Below, piece by piece: positions 25,395 to 30,969 of a DNA stretch of 37,812 nucleotides. The notes under the pieces were generated by a model. It had not been told where the DNA came from. It saw nothing but the letters and a program-made list of their open reading frames with translations, and searched no databases. Origin of the DNA: Vicinamibacteria bacterium (GTDB lineage: Bacteria; Acidobacteriota; Vicinamibacteria; Fen-336). How positions within the stretch are numbered: position 1 is the stretch's first letter; the number at the start of each line of letters is the position of its first letter. The stretch spans positions 1 to 37,812 of the forward strand of contig JAFGSN010000152.1 of NCBI GenBank assembly GCA_016934575.1. The letters run 5' to 3'. The translations under genes were made by a program, and so were the position numbers.

Positions 25395-26069
25395 ATGCGG
25401 CAGAAGCTGATTTCCCTGGGCAAGGACACCGTGCTGTGGGAGGCCGGCGATGTCGCGAGGGACATCGCCGTCGTCACTCGTGGAAAACTCGGCATCCGCA
25501 CGGAGAAAGGCATCGTTGGGATCGCCCTGCCTTTGATGGTCCTCGGCGAGAACGCCGTCTTCGATGTAGACGGTTGCGCCCAAAGCCGCAGCGCGAGCGT
25601 CGTCGCTCTCGAGGACGACACGCAAGTCACGGCCTATCCGGCGGCCGAGATTCGCGAAACGCTGGAGGCCGGCGATGGCGCCCTGGCACGGCAAGTGCTC
25701 GACACTCTTGTCGGTCAAATTTGCCGCAACTTGTTGATGGTGATCAGCGCGCGCCAGGGCGACCCTCTCGTCGAGGCGCCCCTGCTCGGTCTCGTGCGCG
25801 GCATCGTCGGGGATCTCGGCCGCTCTCCTCGCCTCGATACCTGGAACAACTTTATTGCCGTCTTCTCGTTTCTTCATGAGCTTCGAGATCTCTCCGACCA
25901 TGCTCTCCAGCTTCTCGGTCCTGAAGTGCGCCAGCAAATCGATCTCGTCGAAAACGCCTCCCAGATACTCACGCAGTTCGTCGAGGGCCGTGACGTCTCC
26001 GCGTTGATCGAGATCTTTCTGACCGCGGAGCGCGAGAAAGCAATGTGGTGGGCGCGAGGAGCTTCCTGA
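25395..26069 (+). CDS. Cyclic-nucleotide-binding domain protein
   Basis: The protein has 224 residues. Residues about 5-95 look like a cNMP-binding beta-roll: LISLGKDTVLWEAGDVARDIAVV, then LGENAVFD with E52 and SRSASVVALE with R65, the two positions that contact the cyclic nucleotide phosphate and ribose. The rest is helical with no DNA-binding HTH, so it is not a Crp/Fnr activator. It follows the TolC-like gene by 61 bases with its own GAGAGGAG ribosome site, probably in one operon. A second cNMP-binding domain is fused to the PilT-like motor at 27405-29471. Function unknown; ligand binding is inferred. Confidence 0.65.
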   Translation: MRQKLISLGKDTVLWEAGDVARDIAVVTRGKLGIRTEKGIVGIALPLMVLGENAVFDVDGCAQSRSASVVALEDDTQVTAYPAAEIRETLEAGDGALARQVLDTLVGQICRNLLMVISARQGDPLVEAPLLGLVRGIVGDLGRSPRLDTWNNFIAVFSFLHELRDLSDHALQLLGPEVRQQIDLVENASQILTQFVEGRDVSALIEIFLTAEREKAMWWARGAS

Positions 26070-27404: not shown

Positions 27405-29471
27405 TCAGATGCGGCGGATTTCCATGACCACTCGAAGACGTTTTCCGCCGCGCTCGATCGTGAGCTGATGGCGTCCGTCGCCGCGGAATATGACACGCGC
27501 CTCATCGAGAGTGTGCTCCTGGGCCGGCCGGCCGTTGATTTCCGCCAGAACGTCGCCGCGCTGCAGACCCGCATCCGCGGCTGGAGACGCCGGTTTGACG
27601 GCCAGGACGCGCAACGGCTGACCGGAAGGATCCGCCATGAGCGTCAGGCCGCTGCGATATCGTCGCAACAGATCTTCCTTTTCGACGGCTCTGCCGAGCG
27701 CCTCATCCATCTCGATCTTGCGGGCGTCGACGAGTCGCGCCAGATCGTCGTTGAGAAGCGTCATGCCGGCCGCGCGACCGGCCTGCATGACTCCCGGTAT
27801 CTGAATCGTCTTGGACTCACGGATGAGATTGGAGACGGCATAATTGACCACCAGTATCTCCAGGGCGGCGATTCGCCCGCCGCCGATTCGCTTGCACAGC
27901 GTCTGGGCGACGACGCCGCGCAGGACGTCGGCCAGCGTATTGCGTATCTGCGGCTGGCGCTCGGCCGGAAACATGTCGACGATGCGATCGATGGTGCTCA
28001 CGGCGCTGTTCGTGTGCAGCGTTGCGAGCACGAGATGGCCCGTGTTCGCCATCTCGAGAGACAGAGAGATCGTCTCGAGGTCGCGCATCTCGCCGACCAG
28101 CACGACATCGGGATCTTCTCGCAGGGCCGCGCGCAAAGCGCGAGCGAATCCCGTCGTGTGCCCGCCCACCTCGCGCTGATTGATGAGCGATTTGCCGCTC
28201 TCGTGCACGAACTCGATGGGATCCTCGATCGTCACGATGTGGATTCTCTTCGACGCCTTGATGTGGTCGATCATCGCCGCCAGCGTCGTCGACTTGCCGC
28301 ATCCCGTCGGTCCGGTGACCAGGATCAAGCCCTTGGGTATCTCGCACAACGTCTTGAGCACCGGCGGCATCCCGAGCTGATCGAGGTTCAAGATCTTGGA
28401 GGGAATCAGCCGCATGGCGGCGCCAACGCCCATGCGATCGCGGAAAAGATTCACGCGGAAGCGCACTCCGCCGCGAACGGCGTAAGCAAAGTCCGTATCG
28501 TTGTCGGCGGTGAACTGCTCCCGGTGGCGAGCATCCATGATCGGCTCGATCAGCTCCAGCACTTCATCGGCGCCGAGCGTCGCGAGGTCCGAGATGACGC
28601 GGATATCGCCATCGATACGCCAGTGCGGCGGATAGCCCGCCGAAAGATGGAGATCCGAGGCGCCTTCGGCCACGACTCGATCGAGCAGCGCATCCAGGCG
28701 GGGCGACGCCGGAGGGGCCAGCGCCTCGACGGTTTGAGCCTGTTTCGGTCCGGACAAAGCCGGGACTCCGGCTCTTGATCCCATGACCTCGTTGAAAAAG
28801 CCGATGTCGATGCGAACCGTGCGCAACTCCATGCCGGGAAGATGCTCACGCGCGGCGCTCATCGCTTGCGAAGTCGGATCATCCAGCAGGCCCAGGGTCA
28901 GGACGTTGCCCGTCGCCTCGATCGGAAGAATCCGATGTCTCTGCATCAACTCCATCGGCAGAAGCTTCAGAACATCCGCTCCGGGAAAGCCTTTGCGGAC
29001 ATCGTAATCGGGCGGCGGCATCTTGCCCGAAACTTGCGCGAGACGGGAGGCCAGCCCGGCCGATACTCCCAGTCCAAAGTCCGGTATCTTCTGGAACATC
29101 GCGGCAAATGCCTTCTCGCTGTACTTTACGGCCAGCACCGTTTCGACGGCCGCGACCGAGGCCGTTCTCGGACTCTGCAACAGCAGACCCACCTCGCCGA
29201 CGCTGCTGGGCGCGGGCCTTCTTCCAATCTCGACGCTTTCTCCGGCGCCGCTTTTCAAACGCACGACGGTTTCACCCGCGATGATCAGGAAGAAGGAGTC
29301 GGAGGGTTCGCCTTGCTCGACGATCACTTCCCCCGGATCGAACTGAACGGCTTCGCCGACCTTGATGACCTGCGGGAAGTGCTCCGGTTTAAGCGCCCGG
29401 AAGAGGGGGCAGAATCCGAACGCCGCGCCGATCTTGTCATGCAAGGCATCGTCCAGAGCCAAGACTCTCAT
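27405..29471 (-). CDS. PilT-type motor ATPase fused to cNMP-binding and PDZ domains
   Basis: The protein has 688 residues, about twice the usual PilT. Residues ~21-130 form a cyclic-nucleotide-binding domain (VGEVGLLLQSPRTASVAA with E93 and R102, the key ligand contacts). Residues ~165-230 resemble the GspE/MshE N-terminal domain (LLPMELMQRHRILPI, LTLGLLDDPT). Residues ~255-605 are PilT-like: Walker A GPTGCGKST (387-395), Asp box IEDPIEF (E416), Walker B DVVLVGEMRD (455-464), His box HTNSAVSTIDRI. Residues ~610-688 form a PDZ domain (VKPASPAADAGLQRGDVLAEI). All motor motifs are intact. PilT depolymerises type IV pili; here a nucleotide signal and a PDZ contact probably modulate it. GGAGGAGGGAG supports the start. 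Confidence 0.85.
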   Translation of the reverse strand: MRVLALDDALHDKIGAAFGFCPLFRALKPEHFPQVIKVGEAVQFDPGEVIVEQGEPSDSFFLIIAGETVVRLKSGAGESVEIGRRPAPSSVGEVGLLLQSPRTASVAAVETVLAVKYSEKAFAAMFQKIPDFGLGVSAGLASRLAQVSGKMPPPDYDVRKGFPGADVLKLLPMELMQRHRILPIEATGNVLTLGLLDDPTSQAMSAAREHLPGMELRTVRIDIGFFNEVMGSRAGVPALSGPKQAQTVEALAPPASPRLDALLDRVVAEGASDLHLSAGYPPHWRIDGDIRVISDLATLGADEVLELIEPIMDARHREQFTADNDTDFAYAVRGGVRFRVNLFRDRMGVGAAMRLIPSKILNLDQLGMPPVLKTLCEIPKGLILVTGPTGCGKSTTLAAMIDHIKASKRIHIVTIEDPIEFVHESGKSLINQREVGGHTTGFARALRAALREDPDVVLVGEMRDLETISLSLEMANTGHLVLATLHTNSAVSTIDRIVDMFPAERQPQIRNTLADVLRGVVAQTLCKRIGGGRIAALEILVVNYAVSNLIRESKTIQIPGVMQAGRAAGMTLLNDDLARLVDARKIEMDEALGRAVEKEDLLRRYRSGLTLMADPSGQPLRVLAVKPASPAADAGLQRGDVLAEINGRPAQEHTLDEARVIFRGDGRHQLTIERGGKRLRVVMEIRRI

Positions 29472-29544
29472 CGTCTCCCTCCTCCTCCGCTTGATCCCTT
29501 TCTTCTCCCGGAATGACCTTCGTGAGCTTGCGTGATATCCGCAA

Positions 29545-29599: not shown

Positions 29600-30616
29600 C
29601 TAGCCCTGGCGACCCGCCGCGATTCTTTTTTCCAGCTCTCGCAGACGTCTGAAAATCTCCGGCAGCCTCGGGAATACGGCGATGGCTTTAAGCCAGGTCC
29701 GGTTGTCGATCGCGGGATAGCCTGAAACGCATGCGCCGGCTGCGACAACATGGGCCACGCCCGTCTGAGCGGTGGCAATGACATCGTCTCCGATCGTGGC
29801 ATGATCGACGACGCCGACCTGCCCGGCGAGAGTGACGCGGCTGCCGATTCTCGAGCTGCCCGCGATGCCGACCTGCGAACAGAGGATCGTGTTCTCTCCG
29901 ATTCTGACCGAATGCGCGACCTGGACGAGATTGTCGATCTTGGTGCCGCGACCGATGCGAGTTTCACCCAAAGCCGCGCGATCGACGGCCGCCAGAGCGC
30001 CGATCTCGACGTCGTCTTCAATGACGACGACGCCGACTTGAGGGATCTTGTGATGTCGTCCCGATCCGTCGCGCGCGAATCCGAATCCGTCCCCGCCGAT
30101 CGTCGCTCCGTTCTGCACGACGACGCGATCGCCCAGCCGGCAGAGCTCGCGAACCTGCGCGCCTGAATGCAGGATGCAGTCTTCGCCCACGACGACGTCT
30201 TCATAAAGCGTCACGTGAGGATGAACGATCGTGCGCGCTCCAATCCGGACGCGGGGGCCGACGACCGCCAATGCGCCGACGTGAACGTCTCGTCCAAGGA
30301 CGGCGCTCGCATCCACCTGCGCCGACGGGTGCACGCCGACCGCCGGACGTGGCTGAGGATGCAGCAACGCGACGGCTTTCGCGAAAGCCAGGTATGGATT
30401 GTCCGAAATCAAGCTCGGCAGGGCCGTGACTGTGCTCGGCGCAACGATCACCGCCGATGCATGCGTCGTCTTGAGATGCGCCGCGAACCTCGCGCTGGCC
30501 ACGAAAGTCAGATCGCCGGCTCCGGCCTCCTCGATGGACCGCACCCGGCGAACCTCGACGCATCCGTCTCCCCGGACGAGGCATCCCAGCTTTTCCGCCA
30601 GCTCGTCGAGCTTCAC
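29600..30616 (-). CDS. lpxD: UDP-3-O-acylglucosamine N-acyltransferase
   Basis: The 338-residue length is standard for LpxD. An N-terminal uridine-binding domain ([37 protein letters not shown]) leads into a left-handed beta-helix of hexapeptide repeats, with [13 protein letters not shown] and the catalytic histidine H235 in [12 protein letters not shown]. It adds the second 3-hydroxyacyl chain from acyl-ACP in lipid A synthesis, in the cytoplasm. Other lpx genes are absent nearby. Its ATG overlaps the bactofilin stop by four bases, an unusual partner. Confidence 0.95.
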
Positions 30617-30969
30617 CCCGCGGGCGCTCCGGCCGCCGGTTTGGCTTGGTTGGATGAGCCGGCGTTGATCGTTCCGTTGATCTGCGCCCCCTCGCGAACG
30701 GCCAACGACTGCGCTTCGACTCCGCCCTGCACGCGCGCCTTTTCCATGAGCACCAGGCTTCGCACGGAGATGTCGCCCTTGTACTCGCCGGAGATTTCCG
30801 CGGCATCAGCGGCGATCTTGGCCTCGACCCGCGAGCCCTCGCCCAATATGATCCGGCCGGTCAGTTCGATGTCTCCGCGAAACCGCCCGAAAATCCTGGC
30901 GTCCTTCCCCTTGAGTTTTCCCTCGATCTCCGTCTGGGCGTCGATCACCGTGAGCTTCTCGACTTCCAT
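30613..30969 (-). CDS. Bactofilin
   Basis: This 118-residue polymer-forming protein has the bactofilin core as short right-handed beta-helical repeats: [57 protein letters not shown] and [18 protein letters not shown]. The tail is Ala/Pro-rich. Bactofilins assemble nucleotide-free filaments at the membrane that organise cell shape, stalk or chemotaxis/pilus proteins. The ATG has GGAGG upstream. It is translationally coupled to lpxD, which suggests a link to envelope growth. Confidence 0.88.

Follow-up and report, generated by a model that had tools for sequence, protein, structure and literature searches.

Cyclic di-GMP (c-di-GMP) directly controls the type IV pilus extension motor MshE (PMC7096442), and in MshE-type motors the N-terminal part of the MshEN domain carries two 24-residue c-di-GMP motifs of the form RLGxx...LxxQ (PMC5013675). 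The effect of cAMP on type IV pili is transcriptional, by way of Vfr (PMC11656802). A pilus motor gated by a second messenger is thus a known idea from c-di-GMP and MshE, and what is new at the locus described here is a cyclic nucleotide-binding (CNB) sensor on a PilT motor. We found no description in the open-licence papers searched of a CNB domain on a PilT-, PilB- or GspE-type motor, or of a PDZ domain on PilT; subscription papers or domain databases may hold one.

The window, by which we mean the whole stretch of 37,812 nucleotides from a Vicinamibacteria bacterium, encodes on its minus strand a 688-residue protein, P0001, in which the initial annotation had seen a fusion of four parts: a CNB domain, a GspE-N-like segment, a PilT ATPase and a PDZ domain. 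Profile matches in Pfam and NCBIfam, together with end-to-end conservation elsewhere, confirm the fusion, with Pfam placing cNMP_binding at residues 42-128, MshEN at 164-216, T2SSE at 256-528 and PDZ_6 at 622-672. The gene and its parts are as follows.

27405..29471, minus strand: gene for the CNB-MshEN(C)-PilT-PDZ protein P0001, 688 aa (translation, Pfam, NCBIfam, orthologues)
29477..29488, minus strand: Shine-Dalgarno-like GGAGGAGGAGGG, a strong run ahead of the P0001 ATG (sequence reading)
29088..29348, minus strand: CNB domain, residues 42-128 (Pfam PF00027 7.7e-14, and 1.0e-14 in a second scan; Z 18.2-18.6 against cNMP-bound CNB structures)
29160..29198, minus strand: phosphate-binding cassette GEVGLLLQSPRTA, residues 92-104, with E93 and R102 (alignment with PKA RI-alpha; conservation in relatives)
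28824..28982, minus strand: C-terminal half of MshEN (GspE-N-like), residues 164-216 (Pfam PF05157 1.1e-5, above the cut-off, profile positions 14-66 of 90; recurs in relatives)
27675..28706, minus strand: PilT motor, residues 256-599, with Walker A GPTGCGKST, Walker B GEMRD and AVSNLIRE (TIGR01420 447 bits; structure match to Geobacter PilT4)
27429..27662, minus strand: PDZ domain, residues ~604-681 (PDZ_6 4.6e-11, PDZ 1.4e-7; DegP PDZ 7e-8 in the PDB sequence set)

Translation starts at an ATG at 29471 on the minus strand; no sigma-70-type promoter was found upstream on that strand, a result of little weight in this phylum. Three other species of the class keep all four parts of the protein end to end (57-66% identity) and a fourth relative runs off its own contig within the PDZ domain, which excludes an assembly artefact as the source of the fusion. 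Chance joining of adjacent genes is likewise ruled out by the full-length orthologues, the single open frame and a clear codon-phase signal.

The CNB domain scores 51.9 bits against PF00027, above the cut-off of 27.5. Structure prediction, a check suggested in the initial annotation, was performed with AlphaFold2 from an alignment of 27 rows (mean pLDDT 82), and the model is confident both for the PilT motor and for the beta-roll and B/C helices of the CNB domain. The CNB model matches PycTIR with cUMP (Z 18.6), a mycobacterial CRP with cAMP (18.4) and CNB-B of PKA RI-alpha with cAMP (18.2), all tied. Residues 119-147 form the helices that pass on ligand binding in CNB domains. The two residues singled out as ligand contacts before this analysis, E93 and R102, are exactly the Glu and Arg of the GE...R pattern in the phosphate-binding cassette, and in alignment they match GE...PRAA in CNB-B of PKA RI-alpha.

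Conservation of this cassette was assessed across 19 proteins that share the CNB-MshEN-PilT order (CNB-PilTs). E93 is present in 18 of them, with Asp in the remaining one, R102 in 17 and both residues in 16. The arginine is gone in two members (L052 and L203), and the Asp belongs to G443, which is also the one with a cyclase-like neighbour. In proteins that carry the CNB-MshEN module on PilB/GspE-type ATPases, the equivalents of E93 and R102 are both kept in all 21 aligned sequences. Furthermore, an 11-row N-terminal alignment with 29-55% identity to P0001 contains only 16 invariant columns, G92, E93, R102 and A104 among them. Because the ligand cassette is conserved across the clade, real nucleotide binding by the CNB domain is favoured, and with both ligand residues so well kept we would not expect a CNB domain that serves only as a scaffold.

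The segment described at the outset as GspE-N-like was correctly recognised, but it comprises the C-terminal half of MshEN alone (profile positions 14-66), the c-di-GMP-binding half being absent. The CNB domain occupies the place of that missing half; directly behind it comes the C-terminal MshEN half, and after that the PilT motor. A relaxed form of the RLGxx...LxxQ motif was found in no CNB-PilT and no CNB-PilB/GspE protein, by a script run without a positive control and with two other motors of the genome also lacking the motif. Control by c-di-GMP through MshEN was rejected, since the motif was not found and the region in question is a CNB domain, not MshEN_N. Since PilT ordinarily has no MshEN at all, PilT probably acquired the CNB and MshEN half together, in one piece, from a protein of the CNB-PilB/GspE type. 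At one locus (L051, 7938-10529) the gene after a CNB-MshEN-PilT gene encodes CNB-MshEN only (238 aa), an arrangement that fits a mobile module; 18 bp ahead of the CNB-MshEN-PilT gene there lies a gene for a 930-aa protein that looks membrane-embedded at its start.

The motor is a complete PilT ATPase, as first proposed. It matches TIGR01420, the PilT/PilU family, over residues 259-599 with 447.3 bits against a cut-off of 319.1 (NCBIfam), and T2SSE over residues 256-528 (Pfam, 6.3e-50). The residues of Walker A, the Asp box, Walker B and the His box are all present in columns that are nearly invariant in the motor alignment, and K393, S394, E461, H479 and H486 are kept in 19 of 19 CNB-PilTs. 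Superposed on Geobacter PilT4, the motor model gives Z 43.8 and an rmsd of 1.5 over 350 residues at 48% identity; over the motor, PilTs such as Geobacter PilT4 and Pseudomonas PilT give 48-53% identity and Z 43-44. By membership in the PilT/PilU subfamily, the motor is assigned as a retraction-type ATPase. Identity with PilU was rejected, as the motor model reaches only Z 39.7 and 36% identity to PilU versus Z 43.8 and 48% to PilT4. Identity with canonical PilT was also rejected, given 688 aa with three added domains and a separate clade (100/99).

The C-terminal PDZ domain called in the initial annotation is present by sequence profiles, with PDZ_6 at 42.7 against a cut-off of 27 and PDZ at 32.3 against 23.2 (Pfam), by the match to DegP PDZ, and by recurrence of the profile match in the relative L045; the tails of L044 and L046, when aligned, conserve it too. 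The region has a pLDDT below 50 in the full model and of 59 when modelled alone from a single sequence, a low confidence that reflects the lack of any PDZ-bearing relative in the alignment. The sequence evidence for the domain is firm, and we infer that it may dock another protein. No PDZ domain was seen in 14 of the 19 CNB-PilTs and, judged by this comparison, the domain is not part of the core CNB-PilT design. Most bacterial PDZ domains are periplasmic, so to find a cytoplasmic one attached to a pilus motor would be unusual as well.

The 19 CNB-MshEN-PilT sequences found come from Acidobacteriota, Myxococcota and Riflebacteria, and P0001 is not a one-off; it belongs to a conserved, apparently undescribed family. 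In a tree of 61 PilT motors, all 19 CNB-PilTs lie on one side of a single branch (ultrafast bootstrap 100, SH-aLRT 99), and within them five members of the PDZ lineage lie on one side of another (100/96) as a subclade of the window's class. As the CNB-PilTs form one clade, the simplest reading of the tree is that the CNB sensor was joined to PilT once and kept, and that the PDZ domain was gained once, later.

Distribution of the family is patchy. In the window's class, 6 of 193 genomes have a PilT-type CNB motor, one of the six decayed. Forms without PDZ occur in 8 of 195 Myxococcota genomes, in one Acidobacteriota MAG, in one Riflebacteria MAG and in G443, which represents another class within the window's own phylum; no further relatives were found among 142 genomes of that class. 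The copy in genome G040 (L186, 2772-4075) has lost its middle, from the MshEN half to the Walker region. What remains is one fragment with the CNB and another with the second half of the motor and the PDZ, and this internal deletion represents either decay or misassembly. The L052 protein, whose CNB lacks the arginine, comes from a record titled Klebsiella pneumoniae; since it groups with copies from Myxococcota, that title is probably mistaken. CNB-MshEN on PilB/GspE-type (assembly/secretion) ATPases was observed in Acidobacteriota and Myxococcota (L146-L152, L134-L138, L194-L202, L204-L208). PilTs of the neighbouring clade (L019-L026, L057, L058) carry other, unrelated-looking N-terminal extensions of ~60-370 residues. 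Two loci that share a genome (L178, 5398-9408; L179, 8532-12678) show an unusual pairing, in which a large HEAT-repeat-like protein with a terminal PilT motor (~860-1000 aa) is followed by a second PilT gene.

Upstream of P0001, two genes belong to the same-strand run.

29600..30616, minus strand: lpxD-like gene, upstream, 128 bp before P0001 (Pfam LpxD 4.6e-21 and Hexapep)
30613..30969, minus strand: bactofilin gene, first of the same-strand run, with a 4-bp overlap with lpxD (Pfam Bactofilin 2.6e-22)

In Myxococcus, a bactofilin is linked to the localisation of PilB and PilT, so a link between the bactofilin and P0001 is conceivable, although the neighbourhood is not conserved: the bactofilin-lpxD pair was found in the window only and not beside the P0001 orthologues. 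A second cNMP-binding protein (224 aa, Pfam 2.2e-9) is encoded at 25395-26069 on the plus strand, 1.3 kb off the end of the PilT gene, between genes for an outer-membrane efflux protein and a VWA-domain protein.

Elsewhere in the same genome, the search for other pil genes and a canonical PilT located PilC, PilS and PilR on one contig, which opens with the coding sequence for the C-terminus of a canonical PilT. UvrB of the genome, compared with that of ten named genomes, is closest to an Acidobacteriota one (62%), by a narrow lead, and a gammaproteobacterial or myxobacterial origin was dropped. The genome also encodes five PilB/GspE-type ATPases, a T2SS-like cluster, several further PilT paralogues and four class III cyclases, and one gene has a pilin-type N-methylation motif. 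Given this canonical pilT-pilC-pilS-pilR cluster and the PilT paralogues, P0001 is an extra motor. An all-against-all comparison of flanking ORFs gave no conserved operon or partner gene. The loci examined contained no pil gene or common neighbour apart from the one tandem CNB-MshEN gene, leaving the CNB-PilT gene an orphan, and the flanks of the Myxococcota copies held neither a cyclase nor a pil cluster. Among the loci examined, G443 alone has a cyclase-like gene immediately beside the CNB-PilT gene. It is of class III type, begins 36 bp downstream and, across 93 aa, is 46% identical to one of the cyclases that the window's genome encodes (HMM 9e-22). It received no Pfam call because it is partly masked by N.

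With moderate confidence, we propose that P0001 is an accessory, hexameric retraction-type ATPase of the PilT family gated by a 3',5'-cyclic nucleotide, most likely cAMP or cGMP. It is plausible that cAMP or cGMP directly controls pilus retraction in this family, and this reading is better supported for the selection on E93 and R102, the cyclase-like neighbour in one relative, the four cyclases and the canonical type IV pilus cluster. Binding of a 3',5'-cNMP at E93 and R102 would shift the B/C helices (119-147) relative to the MshEN half. Either the ATPase rate of the ring or the strength with which it docks on PilC or its socket, the pilus platform, would change in turn. The PDZ domain, added in the window's lineage, probably tethers the ring to some protein whose C-terminal tail is free. 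The housekeeping motor would be the canonical PilT encoded in the pilT-pilC-pilS-pilR cluster, and P0001 a signal-dependent extra.

The machine served is one point at which this proposal could differ from the truth. P0001 might, while still gated by a cyclic nucleotide, drive another type IV filament-like machine (T2SS-like or other) or aid the priming of extension instead of retraction. The five PilB/GspE-type ATPases, the T2SS-like cluster and the several PilT paralogues in the genome would leave room for such a role, as would the position of the CNB-PilT gene outside any pil operon at the loci examined and the sharing of the CNB-MshEN module with PilB/GspE-type motors; PilT can also assist extension of the MSHA pilus (PMC9815625). 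The motor, however, clearly belongs to the PilT/PilU subfamily, whose link is with T4aP retraction, and its AVSNLIRE resembles the AIRNLIRE of PilT, and we consider this alternative unlikely.

Two further alternatives concern the sensor. The CNB domain could have lost nucleotide binding in vivo and serve as a structural or protein-docking module, with the PilT motor regulated otherwise, mainly by PDZ localisation. Loss of the arginine in two members, Asp for Glu in a third and the position of the window gene behind that of a bactofilin, a cytoskeletal scaffold, would be in keeping with this, but retention of both residues in 16 of 19 proteins over long divergence, and in 21 of 21 of the sister architecture, makes it improbable. 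That the domain gates the motor by sensing something other than cAMP or cGMP, such as cCMP, cUMP or a dinucleotide, seems to us very improbable: although its best fold match, tied with others, is the cUMP-bound PycTIR domain (Z 18.6), and RTA or RSA at 102-104 fits several ligands, PKA RI-alpha is among the best sequence matches, the cassette is of the ordinary cAMP/cGMP type and the genome has ordinary class III cyclases. Other 3',5'-cNMPs are possible ligands, in that a cUMP-binding fold is among the closest matches of the modelled CNB.

Returning to gating by cAMP or cGMP, the family suggests that some bacteria may switch a pilus motor directly by cyclic nucleotides. More broadly and more tentatively, type IV filament motors of several phyla, of both PilT and PilB/GspE types, may be switched directly and allosterically by cAMP or cGMP, the CNB domain taking the position that the c-di-GMP sensor has in MshEN-type motors, with the retraction version of Vicinamibacteria also tethered through a cytoplasmic PDZ domain. 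If true, a cAMP-type sensor on the motor itself would provide a direct and fast path from cyclic nucleotide to pilus dynamics, the retraction side included.

Compared with described systems, P0001 shares its entire motor and all catalytic motifs with PilT of Geobacter (PilT4) and Pseudomonas. PilT, however, is a protein of ~350-380 aa with an N2/PAS-like domain and the motor only, lacking the CNB domain, MshEN half and PDZ domain, and the CNB-PilTs form their own clade. Like P0001, PilU is an extra PilT-family motor beside PilT (PMC6821130), but it is a PilT-dependent accessory retraction ATPase without a sensor domain, and the P0001 motor is nearer PilT. CRP, the PKA regulatory subunit and the Pat acetyltransferase of Mycobacterium likewise fuse a CNB fold with a GE...R(T/S)A cassette to an effector, which in P0001 is instead a pilus-type motor. 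The same CNB-MshEN module sits on a type IV filament ATPase in the apparently undescribed CNB-MshEN-PilB/GspE proteins of Acidobacteriota and Myxococcota, whose motor is of the assembly/secretion type and in which no PDZ domain was seen. The c-di-GMP-gated extension ATPases of the MshE/MshEN type resemble P0001 in placing an N-terminal second-messenger sensor on a type IV filament motor via the MshEN C-terminal half; in contrast, the sensor of P0001 is a CNB domain and not the RLG...Q pair of c-di-GMP motifs, and its motor is of the PilT type (PMC5013675).
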